Below are positions 25,119 through 33,761 of a stretch of 34,675 bases of DNA, in pieces. How positions within the stretch are numbered: the stretch's first letter is position 1; every line of letters begins with the position of its first letter. Source of the stretch: a bacterium (GTDB taxonomy: Bacteria > Armatimonadota > Chthonomonadetes > Chthonomonadales > CAJBBX01); the NCBI GenBank assembly GCA_021811565.1, contig JAJZOL010000231.1, positions 1-34,675 of the forward strand, in the 5' to 3' direction. A program made the translations under genes and the position numbers. The notes under the pieces are model-generated. The model was not told where the DNA came from and made no database searches. It saw only the letters and a program-made list of their open reading frames with translations.

Positions 25119-27902
25119 TTACGAACAACCCAGCACGGCGCCGCAGTTCAAACATTTGTAACAGGCGCCGTTACGCACCATGAGCGCCCCGCACTCCGAG
25201 CAGGCTGGAGCGTCGGATTGAAGCTGGAATATTTCCGCCTCCTTGGCGCTGAACCCGCTTGATGTGAGCTTCGTCTCCCGCGTTTCCATGGCGACGGAAC
25301 CGTTTCCATTAAGCGATTTCTCCTCCTTGGGAGGCTGGGAATCGCCCGGAAGAAATTTAACGCCCAGCCATCGGAAAATGTAATCCGGTATGGACTTGGC
25401 GAAACGAATCTCAGGGTTGGGCGTCATACCGGAAGGTTCGAATCGCATATGAGCGAACTTATTGCACAAAGTCTCCAAAGGCACGCCGTATTGCAGGGCG
25501 AGGGAGGTCATCGTGGCGATGGTGTCCATCAACCCCGAGATCGTGGAGCCCTCCTTGCTCATAGTGAGAAATATCTCGCCGGGGGTTCCATCATCATACA
25601 TTCCCACTGTGATATATCCCTCGTGCCCGGCGATACTGAACTTATGCGTAATCGCCTTCCTCTCATCCGGTAATTTCCGGCGAATCGGCATGAACTCTGG
25701 CGTTTCCCCCTTCGCAGTTGAAGCGTCCTTTTCACCCTCTGCCTTTTTAGTTTTCAAAGGTTGGGTGCGTTTGGAGCCGTCGCGATAAACGGCGATCGCC
25801 TTCAGACCAAGTTTCCAACCCTCCACGTACACTTGGGTGATATCCTCTCGGGAAGCGTCATTGGGCAGGTTCACGGTTTTACTGATAGCTCCGCTAATAA
25901 AGGGTTGAACGGCGGCCATCATTTTAACGTGCCCCATGTAATGAATGGAGCGGGAACCGTTGGCGGGAACGAAGGCGCAATCGAAAACCGAGAGTTGCTC
26001 GTTAAGCAGATGGGGCGCCCCTTCGATGGTGTCATTCGCGTCGATATATTCCAGGATATCGTTGATCTCCTGTGGAGAGTACCCCAGGTTTTCCAAAGCC
26101 TCGGGGACGGTATTATTCACCAGCTTCATCAAACCGCCGCCCACAAGCGTTTTGTATTTCACAATGGCTATGTCAGGCTCCACTCCGGTTGTGTCGCAAT
26201 CCATCATAAATCCAATGGTTCCCGTGGGGGCGAGCACAGTTGTTTGGGAATTGCGATACCCGTATTTCTCCCCCAGTTCAATCGCCTCATCCCAGCTCTT
26301 TCGTGCCGCGTCCATAAGAGGAGAGGGCGTATATTTCTCATCGATATGCTCTATGGCGGCGCGATGCATATGCATCACTTCCAGCATGGATTCCCTGTTC
26401 TCCGGGAATCGCGGAAACGCCCAACCATGGTCCCGCGCTAATATTGCGGATTGCCGATACGCCTCCCCCGTCATGATCGCTGTGATCACCGCAGCAAGGG
26501 CGCGCCCGGCGTCGCTGTCATACGCCAACCCATTCGCCATTAGAAGAGCTCCGAGATTGGCGTATCCCAAACCAAGCGGTCGGAAATCATGGCTGTTCAA
26601 GCCGATACGCTCCGTGGGATAGCTCGCGTTATCCACAATGATTTCCTGAGCGGTGATCAGAACGCGGCACGCATGCAGGAAGCTTTCAAGATCGATGGAT
26701 CGATCCTCATTGCGGAATTGCATCAGGTTCAAGGAGGCGAGATTGCAACTCGTATCGTCCAGGAACATGAACTCGCTGCATGGATTGCTGGCGCGAATAG
26801 GGCCCGTAGCCTTGCAGGTATGCCATCTGTTAATGGTGGTGTCGTATTGCATCCCCGGATCGCCGCATATCCATGCGCTGTTGGAAATCCACTCCATCAC
26901 ATCTCTCGCCTTAAATGTCTCCGCGATGGCACCGCCTTTCACATTGCGGGTGTGCCACTCCCTTCCCGCGAGAAAAGCCTCCATGAAATCGTCCGTGACG
27001 CGCACTGAGTGATTGGCGTTCTGATAACTCACGCTATCGTAAGCGCCGCCAGGCACATTGAAGTTGCCATCATATCCGGCATCTATCAACGCCCAAGCTT
27101 TTTTCTCCTCGTCCGCCTTGCAGGTGATGAAATGACGAATGTCGGGATGGTCCACATTCAAAATCACCATTTTCGCCGCACGGCGAGTCTTGCCTCCGGA
27201 TTTGATGACCCCCGCAAAGGCGTCGAACCCGCGCATGAAGGAGACGGGTCCGGAAGCGGTGCCTCCGCCTTGAAGAGTCTCCTTGGAGGAACGAAGCGAG
27301 GAAAGATTGGTTCCTGTTCCGGAGCCGAATTTGAAGAGCATGCCCTCCGTTTTCGCCAATGTGAGGATGCTCTCCATGGTGTCCTCGACGGAGTTTATGA
27401 AGCAAGCGGAGCATTGCGGATGAGGCTGATCCTCCAAACCGACGTTGAACCAAACGGGCGAATTAAACGCCGCCATCTGATGCAGCAGAAGATATGTTAA
27501 CTCGTCTCGAAATGCGAGAGTGTCCTCGTCGGTTGCGAAATATCTATTCCTTCCACCCCATTCCGCTATGGTGTAAGAGACTCTTTGGATAAGCTGCCTG
27601 ACGCTTTTTTCACGGTCTGGCGCGTTTAAGTGACCGCGAAAATACTTGGAGGCGACCACCTTGATCGCCTGCTGCGACCAGGATTGCGGTGCGTCGATGT
27701 CGTGTTGCTCGAACACCACCTCCCCCTTTCCCCCGGTGATGATCGCCGAACGCTTCTCCCATTCCACCGTCGCCCAGACATCCTGACCAGGCTTGGTATA
27801 TCGCCGCTCCATGCGAATGCCTTTCGGGGCATCGTTGGTTTCCTTCGTGCTGAAAGCGTGCACAGCGGCATCACTTTTTCCGTTATTTTTGTCTTGATTC
27901 AT
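25119..27902 (-). CDS. nrdJ: Adenosylcobalamin-dependent (class II) ribonucleoside-diphosphate reductase
   Basis: FNSPVWFNVGLEDQPHPQCSACFINSVEDTMESI, KFGSGTGTNLSSLRSS, NPCSEFMFLDDTSCNLASLNL, APTGTIGFMMDCDTTGVEPD, C-terminal CSECGALMVRNGACYKCLNCGAVLGCS. Start assigned to the ATG at 27902; the ORF extends to 28010. Confidence 0.95.
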   Translation of the reverse strand: MNQDKNNGKSDAAVHAFSTKETNDAPKGIRMERRYTKPGQDVWATVEWEKRSAIITGGKGEVVFEQHDIDAPQSWSQQAIKVVASKYFRGHLNAPDREKSVRQLIQRVSYTIAEWGGRNRYFATDEDTLAFRDELTYLLLHQMAAFNSPVWFNVGLEDQPHPQCSACFINSVEDTMESILTLAKTEGMLFKFGSGTGTNLSSLRSSKETLQGGGTASGPVSFMRGFDAFAGVIKSGGKTRRAAKMVILNVDHPDIRHFITCKADEEKKAWALIDAGYDGNFNVPGGAYDSVSYQNANHSVRVTDDFMEAFLAGREWHTRNVKGGAIAETFKARDVMEWISNSAWICGDPGMQYDTTINRWHTCKATGPIRASNPCSEFMFLDDTSCNLASLNLMQFRNEDRSIDLESFLHACRVLITAQEIIVDNASYPTERIGLNSHDFRPLGLGYANLGALLMANGLAYDSDAGRALAAVITAIMTGEAYRQSAILARDHGWAFPRFPENRESMLEVMHMHRAAIEHIDEKYTPSPLMDAARKSWDEAIELGEKYGYRNSQTTVLAPTGTIGFMMDCDTTGVEPDIAIVKYKTLVGGGLMKLVNNTVPEALENLGYSPQEINDILEYIDANDTIEGAPHLLNEQLSVFDCAFVPANGSRSIHYMGHVKMMAAVQPFISGAISKTVNLPNDASREDITQVYVEGWKLGLKAIAVYRDGSKRTQPLKTKKAEGEKDASTAKGETPEFMPIRRKLPDERKAITHKFSIAGHEGYITVGMYDDGTPGEIFLTMSKEGSTISGLMDTIATMTSLALQYGVPLETLCNKFAHMRFEPSGMTPNPEIRFAKSIPDYIFRWLGVKFLPGDSQPPKEEKSLNGNGSVAMETRETKLTSSGFSAKEAEIFQLQSDAPACSECGALMVRNGACYKCLNCGAVLGCS

Positions 27903-28129
27903 CCCGCTCAACCTTCCATAGTAAACAAGAGTTAATTGCAAAAGTTCAATAGCCGCACAATTACCGCGCGTATCACGCTTGAAAGTAACCCGACTGATTG
28001 AAGTTTGCATCTATTCCATATATATAAATCTTACGGCTGCAATTGCAAAATTCGGAAATGACGATTAATACCGTTCATTTCACGCTTGGGGAATCTTCGA
28101 ATATCGAATTCTGCAATCACCTGAGTGGA

Positions 28130-28270
28130 TCAGCTTTTCATGTTGGAGTGAGGCTTTAATACAATAGGCGGCAAATCCGCATCCAATAATGTCGGAACAT
28201 CGTTGAAAGTGAAGGGAGCGAATTCCACCGCTCTTTCACCTGCGTCAAAATGTCGTTCCGAAAGATTCAT
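28130..28270 (-). CDS. Small hypothetical protein between nrdR and nrdJ
   Basis: MNLSERHFDAGERAVEFAPFTFNDVPTLLDADLPPIVLKPHSNMKS (46 aa) with a GAGGGAAGC RBS before the ATG. Confidence 0.4.
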   Translation of the reverse strand: MNLSERHFDAGERAVEFAPFTFNDVPTLLDADLPPIVLKPHSNMKS

Positions 28271-28348
28271 GCTTCCCTCTTTTTGTACATACCAAGCGAG
28301 GAAAGAGCAATCCATTCGAAATACTCTTTTAGATTCGGATTGCATCAC

Positions 28349-28831
28349 TCACCTCTCCGTTTCCTTCTTGGATTTTCGCGTGAGCATGTTAACGATATCC
28401 CGAAATTCCGTTGCATCTTCGAACTGTTTATACACCGAGGCGAAACGAACATATGCAACCTGATCCAGCGACCTAAGTCGCTCCATCACGAGGTCGCCGA
28501 TCTCTCTGGAGTGCACCTCTTTCTCAAGACGGTTATAGAGCATGCGTTCGATATCATCCGCTATCTCCTCCAGATCGCTTGAGTTGACGGGGCGACCCGT
28601 GCACGCCAAATGCAAACCTTTCAACACTTTATCCCTGCTAAACGGCTCTCTACTCGCATTGCTCTTCACAACGTAAAGCTGCGTCTCCTCAATCTGTTCG
28701 AAAGTGGTGAAACGACGGTTGCATTCCTTGCACTCGCGTCTGCGTCGTATGATCTTACCGTCGGCGGCCTCTCTTGAATCCAACACATGATCTTCTCTCG
28801 AACCGCAGTAAGGACAAAGCATAGCTTTCAT
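28349..28831 (-). CDS. nrdR: Transcriptional repressor NrdR
   Basis: MKAMLCPYCGSREDHVLDSREAADGKIIRRRRECKECNRRFTTFEQIEETQLYVVKSN: zinc ribbon plus ATP-cone. Start assigned by the AAAGG RBS. Confidence 0.96.
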   Translation of the reverse strand: MKAMLCPYCGSREDHVLDSREAADGKIIRRRRECKECNRRFTTFEQIEETQLYVVKSNASREPFSRDKVLKGLHLACTGRPVNSSDLEEIADDIERMLYNRLEKEVHSREIGDLVMERLRSLDQVAYVRFASVYKQFEDATEFRDIVNMLTRKSKKETER

Positions 28832-28875
28832 CAACCTTTCAACATAAGATGTCCGCTCAATATGTTTGATGAATC

Positions 28876-28928
28876 TACCAATATCTTGTGGACATATAAT
28901 CATATCATCCCAATATGTTGCCTGTCAA
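28876..28928 (-). promoter_or_regulatory. nrdR promoter with two candidate NrdR boxes
   Basis: Minus strand: TTGACA (28928-28923), 18-nt spacer, TATGAT (28904-28899). CAATATNTTG-cored boxes begin at 28879 and 28911, exactly 32 bp apart. Confidence 0.55.
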
Positions 28929-29037: not shown

Positions 29038-29435
29038 CAAATGAATGGATGCATTATCCAGTCATCTCCCATGCTCATTTAGACAGAGTAAGAGAAATGA
29101 CGACATGGATTCACCCCGCCACGACGCAACGCCCCTCGCCAGGTTATTGACGTCCATTTCACGCCTCCATATGGTTTGAACCCTTGATCACAGGATATAA
29201 GGTGATTGCAAAAAGCGGAAATCGAGGTTGTGCGCAATCAGCGCGGCATACGCGAATAATAAACGAGATTTTTCCTTTCACCGAACATAAGGGTTTTTGC
29301 ATTCTGATGGTATTGCATCATACGGAAGAAATGGCGATCACCGATCTTTTCGCTTTCGGTGATGACACCCGGGTGGTGAATTTCGCAATCACCTGTTCCT
29401 ATTGGATTTATATGTTATTTTTTTGCTGAGGGAAA

Positions 29436-30314
29436 GTGAGTCCTATGAATGGCAATGGCTTGAGAACGGACGATTGGCTTAAAAAACGATTGGAGAGATT
29501 AATCGAGCTACACTATTCCGATGTCAATCGGGGCTATCCGATCCGCATACGATTTGGTTCGCGCGCCCGATTCCGTTTCGGATCCATCTACTCCGTCAAT
29601 GAAGAGTGTCACATTCTCATCAATAAACTGTTCGCCTATCCCGAAGTCCCGGAATACGTCGTGGATTCCACTTTGGTTCATGAGTTGGCGCATTATGTGC
29701 ACGGATACGGATCGGGTCTGCGAAAAATGCACGCTCAGCCGCATCGCGGGGGCGTTGTGGACGAGGAAATGCGCAAACGCGGATGCGATCATTACGAAAT
29801 CGATGCGGCGGAATGGCGTAGATTGCATTGGAGAAACCTGTACGATCTCCATGCAAAAGATATCATAGACAAAAAGTCCGAACGGGAAAACCGGGATATC
29901 GCGATCTGGGAAAGATATCTGAAAACCCCTGGCTTCCATACGGAGGAGGAGTTAAGATCGCGATGGGGATACCTGAAACAGGTGTTTGATCAAACTGAAA
30001 ATGACACGAAAATTGAATGGCTCCACGGTTCCTTGCATCAAAACGGTTTGTCTTATCGTTATGGCAAGGAGGGCGTGGTACGCATGCACGGCGTTCTCGC
30101 CAACAAATCCGTTCCCGACTATGTCCTTGATTACGAAATGATCTATTGGCTCGCCGAGATGTCCTGTGACGGTTGGAGAGAGATCGAGGAAACCATAAAA
30201 AGGGCGGGGCTCTGGTCGACAGCGGAGAAGGCGATCGCATGGCGCACTCATCGTTGGAAAGGGTTTCTGAGGAAAAATCACCCTCTGCGCAAGAGAGCCG
30301 CCATCCAACAATAA
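29436..30314 (+). CDS. SprT-like zinc metalloprotein (HExxH) with a C-terminal degenerate duplicate
   Basis: VDSTLVHELAHYVHGYGSGLRKMHAQPHRGGVVDEEMRKRG is a SprT-like zincin motif. GTG at 29436 or ATG at 29445. Confidence 0.75.
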   Translation: MSPMNGNGLRTDDWLKKRLERLIELHYSDVNRGYPIRIRFGSRARFRFGSIYSVNEECHILINKLFAYPEVPEYVVDSTLVHELAHYVHGYGSGLRKMHAQPHRGGVVDEEMRKRGCDHYEIDAAEWRRLHWRNLYDLHAKDIIDKKSERENRDIAIWERYLKTPGFHTEEELRSRWGYLKQVFDQTENDTKIEWLHGSLHQNGLSYRYGKEGVVRMHGVLANKSVPDYVLDYEMIYWLAEMSCDGWREIEETIKRAGLWSTAEKAIAWRTHRWKGFLRKNHPLRKRAAIQQ

Positions 30315-30352: not shown

Positions 30353-32392
30353 ATGCGCAAGGAACCATCCGGCGGCAAGAAAGTTACGAGGAGGATAGCT
30401 GGCTCCTCGCGAAGAGAGTTCCTCGGAAAGGTGAGCATGGCAACGGGTTTGCTGCTTGCAGGACTTCCGAATGCCCATGCGCTTCTCGATTCTTCGGCGA
30501 CAGCCACCGAATCCATTGGAGCCACCCTAATCCCCTTCTATACCGGCAATCTCAGCGTAACACCTTTCATGATATACTGGGGAACGGCGAAGAAGTCCGC
30601 CCTACCGGTTAAGGAAGTGGATTCCACCCTCCTCTCCACCCTGCGCAGGATCAGCGTTTTCGCGGACGTGGATTATCTGGCGTGGTGCCTTGCGGAAAAG
30701 AACAAGGGCACATGGGACTTCTCCTACTACGCCAACAACGCCAAGAGTCTGAACGAAGCTGGATTCAAATACGTCGTTTTCTGCTGGGTGCACTTCCCCC
30801 CGAAATGGGCGAAGGAGGGTGGGGATTTCACCCCTTACGCACGTTTGGAGGACGGGGTGACGACAAGGCAATTGTCGCCATGGGATCCTCGATTTAAAGA
30901 GATTTACGATAGGTTTTACGCAGCACTGAGTCACTCTCTCGGTTCGCGTATCGACTTCCTGCGCGTGGGATATCCGTCGGAGTACGGCGAGATGGGTTAT
31001 CCGAACGGAATGACCACCTGGCTCGTGCCGCAGGAGCATTCCGGTCCGGGATTCTGGTGCGCCGATCCCCATGCGAAGGCCGATTTCCGGCGAGTTTTTC
31101 TCGAACGCTACGGCTCGATTGCGGCGATAAACAAAGCATGGGGAACGGAATTCGCAAACGAACAGGATATCTCCATGCCGGAGGCGGTTAACTACGCCAC
31201 AGCCACTCTGGGGCGTAACCACGCGAACGTACAGGCTCGGTACCGATGGTTGGATTTCGTGAATTGGTATCAGGATCACGTGGATATATGCTTTAGCGCC
31301 ATATGCGAGGTGATCCGCCGCCACTTTCCGGGCAAAAGACTCGTGGGCAGCCTTGGATACGGGAGCGAGCAGTGCCGCTACGGTAACGACACCAGCCGAC
31401 ATGTGAAGATGCTGAAGAGGATCAACGCCTGTGCCCAGACACCCGGGGCGATCGGTTATTTCGCCACGCGCAGGGTCTCCAGCGCCTGCCATTTCTACAA
31501 AACACCATACTACACGGAACCGCCGGGAACGGTAGACCCCATGGATGAGATAAAACGCATCTGGATGGACTCCACAAACGGCTGTCAAGTCTATTTCGAC
31601 TATCCCAACAACCTAAATGGTGCCATCCCGGAGTTCAAGGAGTATAAAAAACTACTGAACGGCGATCGCTCCATCACGGATTTCGCATACCTCTTTCCAA
31701 GCTCCTCCTTCTGGCTGGAGGCTTCAACGGATTGGCCCATCATGACTTACGAACTCGGCGAACACCTGCGCTATCGTCTGGATTACGAGCTCATTGACGA
31801 GCAAATGATACAGGACGGTGCCTTGCAGGCGATGGGGATCAAAACGCTTGCTTGGGTTGAGGGAGCCTTTGCTGACGCTAAAACGCTCGATATGATCCGC
31901 AAATGGTTGGAGGACGGCGGGGTTTTGATCCGCCGAAAGAACGGCGAGATGTACGATCTGGAAGGACGCGAAGTAGACTGGCTGCACGGTCTCTCCGCAG
32001 GAGACTGTACTCAGGATTTTCAGCGGGTTTGGCGAGATTCCCTCCATTCCCTCGGAGAAGGAAAATTGCTGTTGATACAGGCGGAAGATTCCAACATGGA
32101 GCGTTTCGCGCGATGCATGCTGGAGTTCTCGGTGAACCGAACGCTTTACGGCGGCTCCGGGATGACGAACACTATGGATCTCAATCCCGATAACATTACG
32201 GATGTCTATTTAAGCCTATTCAAGGATCGCATCCTGATACTCAACGACTCCCGTACCAGCGCAGTCGATTTCCCCTTGAGATTGCGAGAAGAGGATTTCC
32301 GCAAGCGACATCTTCCCCTTCCGGAGACTCTCATCGCGACAATTCATATTCCGCCTCGTTCCATACGCACGATTCGGCTTAAAAAGGGATAA
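30353..32392 (+). CDS. Tat-exported protein, GH42/beta-galactosidase-like
   Basis: Twin-arginine signal SSRREFLGKVSMATGLLLAGLPNAHA. The TIM-barrel-like segment WDFSYYANNAKSLNEAGFKYVVFCWVHFPPKWAKEGGD and SRIDFLRVGYPSEYGEMGYP resembles GH42-type hydrolases. Confidence 0.65.
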   Translation: MRKEPSGGKKVTRRIAGSSRREFLGKVSMATGLLLAGLPNAHALLDSSATATESIGATLIPFYTGNLSVTPFMIYWGTAKKSALPVKEVDSTLLSTLRRISVFADVDYLAWCLAEKNKGTWDFSYYANNAKSLNEAGFKYVVFCWVHFPPKWAKEGGDFTPYARLEDGVTTRQLSPWDPRFKEIYDRFYAALSHSLGSRIDFLRVGYPSEYGEMGYPNGMTTWLVPQEHSGPGFWCADPHAKADFRRVFLERYGSIAAINKAWGTEFANEQDISMPEAVNYATATLGRNHANVQARYRWLDFVNWYQDHVDICFSAICEVIRRHFPGKRLVGSLGYGSEQCRYGNDTSRHVKMLKRINACAQTPGAIGYFATRRVSSACHFYKTPYYTEPPGTVDPMDEIKRIWMDSTNGCQVYFDYPNNLNGAIPEFKEYKKLLNGDRSITDFAYLFPSSSFWLEASTDWPIMTYELGEHLRYRLDYELIDEQMIQDGALQAMGIKTLAWVEGAFADAKTLDMIRKWLEDGGVLIRRKNGEMYDLEGREVDWLHGLSAGDCTQDFQRVWRDSLHSLGEGKLLLIQAEDSNMERFARCMLEFSVNRTLYGGSGMTNTMDLNPDNITDVYLSLFKDRILILNDSRTSAVDFPLRLREEDFRKRHLPLPETLIATIHIPPRSIRTIRLKKG

Positions 32393-32740: not shown

Positions 32741-32752
32741 AGGGATGTTGCA

Positions 32753-32835
32753 TGCCGGAGAAGGGAGTCGAACCCCCACGCGGTTGCCCGCAAGTGATTT
32801 TGAGTCACCCGTGTCTGCCATTCCACCACTCCGGC
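32753..32835 (-). tRNA. tRNA-Leu (CAA anticodon)
   Basis: Minus strand GCCGGAGTGGTGGAATGGCAGACACGGGTGACTCAAAATCACTTGCGGGCAACCGCGTGGGGGTTCGACTCCCTTCTCCGGCA: acceptor GCCGGAG/CTCCGGC, anticodon loop CTCAAAA, long class II variable arm, T-loop TTCGACT. CCA is not encoded. Confidence 0.95.
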
Positions 32836-33011
32836 ATGGATGTATATTATAGAACATGTTCGAAGGGGATGTCAAATTTCAAACGATCCGTAGAAAGGAA
32901 GTTGCCGCTCAATTTCACTTTTTTTCTGAATTAACAAAGGATGCGGAATTGGAGGAAAGACGAGATTTTTATGACTGCCATGCATTACAAATAATGGAAA
33001 TTGGTATGTTG

Positions 33012-33158: not shown

Positions 33159-33761
33159 CTATTTTATACATCGCTTTAAAATTCGCCGAAGGCGGCATGT
33201 TATTCTGTATAGACTCTGCCTCACGGACCGCTCGGATAGCTTCATGGAGAGCGCTATATCCCTAATCGATTCCCCGTTTCTGAAATGCCGCCGATACAGG
33301 TCGCGTTGGCGAGGGGTGAGAAACTCCGCCATCCCGTCCATCATCTCCATAAGCTCCTCATCGATTAGTTCCTGTACCGGATCGGTGAGAACCGAGCTGT
33401 TCCGAAACTCCTCCCATTCCTGCGAAGTCAAATGAACCTCTAAGCCATCATGACGCCGAATTTTCTCGTCGAAATCGATGGCATGGTTTTTCGCGCATTT
33501 GAAGACGTATTGAACGCTGCACATCCCGTTCGCCCTCTTCTCTAGCATCTCGACGCTCTCGCAGAAAGCCTTGATGAGAAACTCCTGGGCGCAATCCTTG
33601 GCGTTCTCCGGCGTAATGCGATACCGAATAATCCAGAATCGAATTGCGCGCATCAGGCAGGTCTCGCATACGGCGTAGGAGCGAGCGGGGCATCGACTCC
33701 CGGAATCATATGGAGTTAATCGCGGAGACTTTATCTCGAACTCGGAGTTGGCAAGGGTCAT
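33159..33761 (-). CDS. RNA polymerase sigma factor, sigma-70/ECF-like
   Basis: 200 aa with region 4-like FLTPRQRDLYRRHFRNGESIRDIALSMKLSERSVRQSLYRITCRLRRIL and region 2-like ITPENAKDCAQEFLIKAFCE. RBS GGAGG. Confidence 0.8.
   Translation of the reverse strand: MTLANSEFEIKSPRLTPYDSGSRCPARSYAVCETCLMRAIRFWIIRYRITPENAKDCAQEFLIKAFCESVEMLEKRANGMCSVQYVFKCAKNHAIDFDEKIRRHDGLEVHLTSQEWEEFRNSSVLTDPVQELIDEELMEMMDGMAEFLTPRQRDLYRRHFRNGESIRDIALSMKLSERSVRQSLYRITCRLRRILKRCIK

Follow-up and report, generated by a model that had tools for sequence, protein, structure and literature searches.

An internally duplicated gene of the Chthonomonadales that almost certainly joins an active metalloprotease domain to a conserved dead copy

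The window, a stretch of 34,675 nucleotides of Armatimonadota DNA, carries a gene formed by internal duplication. It is nearly certain that the encoded protein combines one active domain with one dead domain that has been conserved. The first-pass annotation had read the protein as one catalytic and one pseudo-metalloprotease domain, and this reading is well supported by the sequence, the predicted structure, and the conservation of both halves across 26 genomes. The open reading frame it described is present, and the segments it quoted match the sequence exactly. The interval it gave (29568 to 30173) lies inside the gene and covers only part of it, and its residue numbers are about 3 too high when counted from the ATG at position 29445. 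This ATG is likely the start, in preference to the GTG at position 29436, because a GAGGG stretch lies upstream of it and the N termini of the homologues begin there.

Table 1. Positions in the window of the tandem protease gene, its two halves, and the sites discussed in the text
Feature	Position	Strand	Basis
Tandem active/pseudo SprT-like metalloprotease gene (P0001)	29445..30314	+	289 aa, ATG start; ORF list, translation, and 26 full-length homologues
N-terminal half (aa 1-160), predicted catalytic-competent SprT/minigluzincin-like domain	29445..29924	+	AlphaFold2 model; weak Pfam SprT-like match at aa 32-91; Foldseek with the full model: jannalysin, selecase, SPRTN
HELAH active-site motif (H79, E80, H83)	29679..29693	+	H79, E80, and H83 invariant in 26/26
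H100, candidate third zinc ligand, in the PHRGG loop	29742..29744	+	Invariant in 26/26; ligand role suggested by analogy with SPRTN and minigluzincins
C-terminal half (aa 161-289), predicted pseudo-metalloprotease domain	29925..30311	+	Profile match to the N-terminal half; AlphaFold2 model of the half alone; ten best PDB matches all minigluzincins
YWLAE (Y234, W235, E238), degenerate counterpart of HELAH	30144..30158	+	W235 in 26/26, Y234 in 24/26; E238 position variable, mostly R
GAGGG, putative ribosome-binding site for the ATG at 29445	29428..29432	+	Read from the sequence

Internal duplication and its distribution

Self-alignment, which the first-pass annotation had named as a check on the duplication, returned significant matches between the two halves. 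The window sequence alone gave a blastp E value of 3e-4, and trimmed profiles of the two halves, built from the 26 homologues, aligned with an hhalign E value of 2.7e-10 and a score of 59.9. The highest score in 300 column shuffles was 22.5 and that of the reversed profile was 13.7, which rules out chance similarity. The full half-profiles align end to end (E, 9.8e-13 over 122 columns). As in the first-pass annotation, the profiles pair HELAH with YWLAE. Separate matches are significant for the motif block (E, 4.1e-8) and for the helical tail at the C-terminal end, RGxx...A.xWR...W (E, 2.1e-7). These two blocks do not overlap and are collinear in both halves; the independent match of the tail rules out a similarity restricted to the segment quoted earlier. 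The N-half profile alone also recovers the C-half of another family member (genome G003; E, 0.0012).

Full-length members numbered 26 in a single-sequence search of 101 genomes, and a profile search of 292 Armatimonadota genomes likewise found 26, all in the Chthonomonadales and none in the 261 genomes outside this order. The same duplication is present in every one of the 26, which align end to end and share 31 to 93% identity with the window protein. The family occurs in 26 of the 31 Chthonomonadales genomes and spans three families; one of the five genomes without it is only 64% complete. A phylogenetic tree of all 52 halves resolves clean N and C clades with a split support of 1.0, and we therefore place a single duplication before the divergence of the order. 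Coverage beyond the Armatimonadota consisted solely of a scan of GTDB genomes for close relatives and of searches of viral, phage, and plasmid sequences. The only match in the former was a Chthonomonadales (Armatimonadota) metagenome-assembled genome at 93% identity, and a search for the tandem protease in phages, plasmids, viral contigs, PHROGs, and PADLOC returned no match, on which grounds a phage or plasmid origin was rejected.

Active site and its degenerate counterpart

All 26 homologues retain H79, E80, H83, and H100 in the N-half, while no C-half among them contains an HExxH motif. In the profile alignment, the counterpart of H79 is Y234, that of E80 is W235, and that of H83 is a variable position; the C-half has no counterpart of the PHRGG loop that carries H100. 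Other positions of the C-half are strongly conserved, including W192 and H215 (both invariant in 26/26) and the nearly invariant W266, W271, and S203-Y204 pair. Between the two congeners, the ratio of nonsynonymous to synonymous substitutions (Nei-Gojobori) reaches 0.12 in the N-half and 0.11 in the C-half, so selection constrains the dead half as much as the active one. This value, together with conservation in 26/26 members, rules out a decaying pseudogene, and the conserved Tyr-Trp pair in the dead site suggests from sequence that some function has been kept. In the family mean, the C-half is more basic (net charge, +7.5; pI, 10.0) than the N-half (+2.2; pI, 8.4).

Predicted structure and family assignment

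An AlphaFold2 model of the full-length protein, built from the 26-member alignment, has a mean pLDDT of 95.3 and a pTM of 0.79. Its predicted elements pair one for one between the halves: the first helix, 9-23, with 167-180; strands 33-37, 46-51, and 54-59 with 189-193, 203-206, and 211-215; and helices 61-64, 70-85, 101-111, 115-136, and 138-159 with 216-219, 225-240, 244-253, 257-278, and 282-288, respectively. Foldseek searches of the PDB with the full model are led by jannalysin, SPRTN (6mdw), and selecase (probability, 0.98 to 1.00; E, 0.03 to 0.09), with 6mdw the second match (probability, 1.00; rmsd, 2.9 over 101 columns; E, 0.036). The C-half folded alone is also predicted with confidence (pLDDT, 95.0; pTM, 0.87), and its ten best PDB matches are selecase, jannalysin, and abylysin (E, 0.06 to 0.4; TM, about 0.4 to 0.6). 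No Foldseek match to the PDB fell below an E value of 0.001 for either model, and single-sequence and profile searches of PDB sequences found no solved relative. The shared order of elements and the independent fold matches suggest, at the level of these models, that the two halves are structurally alike.

The earlier label of the protein as SprT-like holds at the level of fold and clan and falls short of family membership. The window protein scores 16.5 bits against the Pfam SprT-like model (PF10263), below the gathering score of 25.6, and 23 of the 26 members match this model weakly (best E, 1.2e-4). YgjP-like (PF01863) is a weaker second candidate, which matches 7 of 26 members at an E value of 1 or less (best, 0.0062) and is not among the matches of the window protein. 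NCBIfam, PHROGs, and PADLOC contain no model for the tandem family. Its predicted fold places it in the SprT/YgjP/minigluzincin group, outside the curated threshold of every named family.

A search of the Chthonomonadales genomes found no SprT-like protein above the Pfam cutoff, and 87 genomes in the rest of the Armatimonadota encode such proteins. In roughly half of 28 SprT-like or borderline loci of the latter, HExxH is followed some 40 to 75 residues later by one or two CxxC motifs, the spacing that a Zn ribbon would have. None of the 26 tandem proteins contains a CxxC motif; their pseudo-domain occupies the position where many SprT-like proteins bear the Zn ribbon. The same duplication, sought among the 28 SprT-like or YgjP-like loci, was found in none. 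Two loci of other Armatimonadota (L168 and L170) encode SprT-like proteins in which the motif reads HEWAH and a small domain like VxFTDxxGxxxxGxVRRVNxxTxTI is present as two repeats toward the C terminus, another appendage variant.

Genomic neighborhood

A DinG/XPD-type helicase (Helicase_C_2 and DEAD_2) lies directly upstream of the tandem protease gene, on the same strand, in five genomes. Its stop overlaps the protease start by 4 bp in G003, G006, G008, and G010 and by 8 bp in G004. In G012, which belongs to another family, a DinG-type helicase ends 405 bp upstream. The loci at which such a helicase gene overlaps the protease gene or lies a short way upstream are L076, L077, L087, L094, L095, and L097. 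Linkage is therefore seen in 6 of 26 genomes; DinG is present apart from the protease in the others, including the window's own genome, where it is on another contig. The helicase and the tandem protease possibly form a two-gene repair operon. The genes of Chthonomonas have been reported to be poorly organized into operons (PMC4959169); the tight overlap carries more weight for this reason, and its absence elsewhere is uninformative.

An order-wide conserved neighborhood was rejected, as what recurs is DinG in the six genomes and otherwise unrelated local neighbors. A glycosyltransferase or galactokinase-like gene recurs beside the tandem protease in some f3 genomes, and, to judge from the positions and lengths of the ORFs, the congener G001 alone shares the NrdR-like upstream and GH-like downstream neighbors in the window. 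The former neighbor belongs to a region (25119 to 28903, minus strand) divergent from the protease gene that encodes a class II (B12-dependent) ribonucleotide reductase with a TSCPD domain and the NrdR repressor. The latter is a 679-residue protein (30353 to 32392, plus strand) that combines a GH14/GH42-type barrel with a twin-arginine-like stretch (SSRREFL) in its N-terminal part. Farther downstream on the minus strand are a tRNA-Leu (CAA) gene (32752 to 32836), overlapped by small and probably spurious ORFs, and a small sigma-70 region 4 protein (33159 to 33761) that is probably an ECF-type sigma factor.

Proposed function and alternative explanations

We infer the protease activity, DNA binding, gating or autoinhibition, and substrate of the tandem protein. 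The reading that we tentatively favor, giving it a little less than an even chance, is by analogy a DNA-linked, SprT/SPRTN-like protease in which the pseudo-domain is a fused partner for DNA or substrate binding and gating. In this account, a whole SprT/minigluzincin-type domain was duplicated in tandem once, before the families of the Chthonomonadales diverged. The first copy would have remained catalytic, with HExxH plus H100. The second was left without any zinc ligand or catalytic glutamate, gained the conserved Tyr-Trp in their place, and was kept as a pseudo-protease domain. The product may act as a built-in heterodimer. Its basic pseudo-domain would stand in for the Zn-ribbon and basic region found in SPRTN-like proteins, bind DNA or a substrate on the DNA, and lie over the catalytic cleft or shape it. 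The first domain could then cut proteins trapped on DNA once a DinG-type helicase has exposed or cleared them. Human SPRTN binds DNA through a Zn-binding subdomain and a basic region that follow its protease domain, and this subdomain also shields the active site (PMC9240642). We favor DNA-linked gating because the duplicate domain, with its high mean charge and pI, sits in the position of this DNA-binding region. Counted against it are the linkage to DinG in a minority of genomes, which excludes the window's own; the window protein, whose C-half is no more basic than its N-half (+3 each); and the subthreshold Pfam score, the empty PDB sequence search, the Foldseek E values above 0.001, and the pTM of 0.79.

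The chief rival, which we consider unlikely, is that the pseudo-domain is mainly autoinhibitory, an intramolecular version of the inhibitory homodimers and oligomers of minigluzincins, whose dead half would block the cleft until a conformational change activates the enzyme, with no need for DNA specificity. Jannalysin, abylysin, and selecase, whose crystallized forms are titled zymogens, dimers, and tetramers, are the nearest folds of the C-half and also supply several of the best matches of the full model, and the conservation of Y234 and W235 in the dead site suggests a retained function. The DinG linkage and the exchange of a Zn ribbon for the duplicate point instead to a role at DNA. An arrangement as in M16 peptidases, in which the pseudo-half forms part of a substrate-binding chamber and is required for catalysis as in alpha-MPP or the C-half of insulysin-type enzymes, would also dispense with a special link to DNA. 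Fused active and pseudo-peptidase halves are known in M16A and M16C (PMC11266112), and the conservation of the pseudo-half in all members, under purifying selection equal to that on the N-half, speaks for it. We consider this explanation distinctly improbable; the domains here are much smaller, their fold is different, and there is no sign of a chamber. A purely structural C-half that stabilizes an N-half working like any SprT/YgjP-type protease is the least probable of the three. Its compact, confidently predicted fold agrees with such a role, and most of its conserved residues are aromatic, with W192 and W235 invariant and W266 and W271 almost invariant, as would suit a hydrophobic core, yet the invariant H215 and the nearly invariant S203-Y204 are more than packing easily accounts for.

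In its most specific form, which we regard as doubtful, the DNA-linked reading holds that the Chthonomonadales replaced the SPRTN-type DNA-sensing module with a dead protease duplicate, so that a self-contained active/pseudo-protease works with a DinG-type helicase in bacterial DNA-protein crosslink repair, the Tyr-Trp-filled pseudo-site serving as the sensor of DNA or substrate. The control of SprT-type proteases is a central question for this repair and is much less known in bacteria. A dead protease copy in place of the DNA-sensing appendage offers a simple test of the role required of that appendage, and the helicase linkage would be the first functional clue to a family without a name in NCBIfam, PHROGs, or PADLOC.

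Comparison with known protease families

A built-in pseudo-enzyme has apparently not been described before in the SprT-like protease group, as a search of the open-licence literature found no description of a SprT-like duplication, pseudoprotease, or tandem zincin; a fused pseudoprotease in such a group is of interest for this reason. In some Acidobacteria-type "SprT-like" proteins, a degenerate half at the N terminus may precede an active half at the C terminus; if so, the tandem family would be less novel.

The tandem family shares with SPRTN/Spartan and other SprT-like (PF10263) proteins the HExxH motif with a later histidine, the fold of a helix, three strands, and a helix, and, through DinG, a probable link to DNA repair; SPRTN is also one of the top PDB hits for the full model. 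It differs in scoring below the Pfam cutoff and in carrying an inactive second protease copy where SPRTN has its Zn-ribbon/CxxC region. The archaeal minigluzincins (jannalysin, selecase, and abylysin) are the best fold matches of the full model and also of the C-half on its own, but they are single-domain proteins of about 110 residues, whereas the tandem protein consists of two fused domains, one of them dead. The motif order of YgjP-like (PF01863) proteins, FGxRxR-GS-(I)xxN-xL-xxxP-xxVV-HELxH, resembles that of the N-half, and 7 of 26 members match weakly; however, the tandem protein lacks the YgjP N-terminal region, its match is weaker than that to SprT-like, and no duplication was seen in the Armatimonadota YgjP-type proteins examined. 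The M16 peptidases (alpha/beta-MPP and the fused M16A and M16C) and carboxypeptidase D likewise join an active metallopeptidase domain to an inactive homologue, but their folds and motifs are unrelated, and they provide a precedent for the working mode of the tandem protein rather than for its family.
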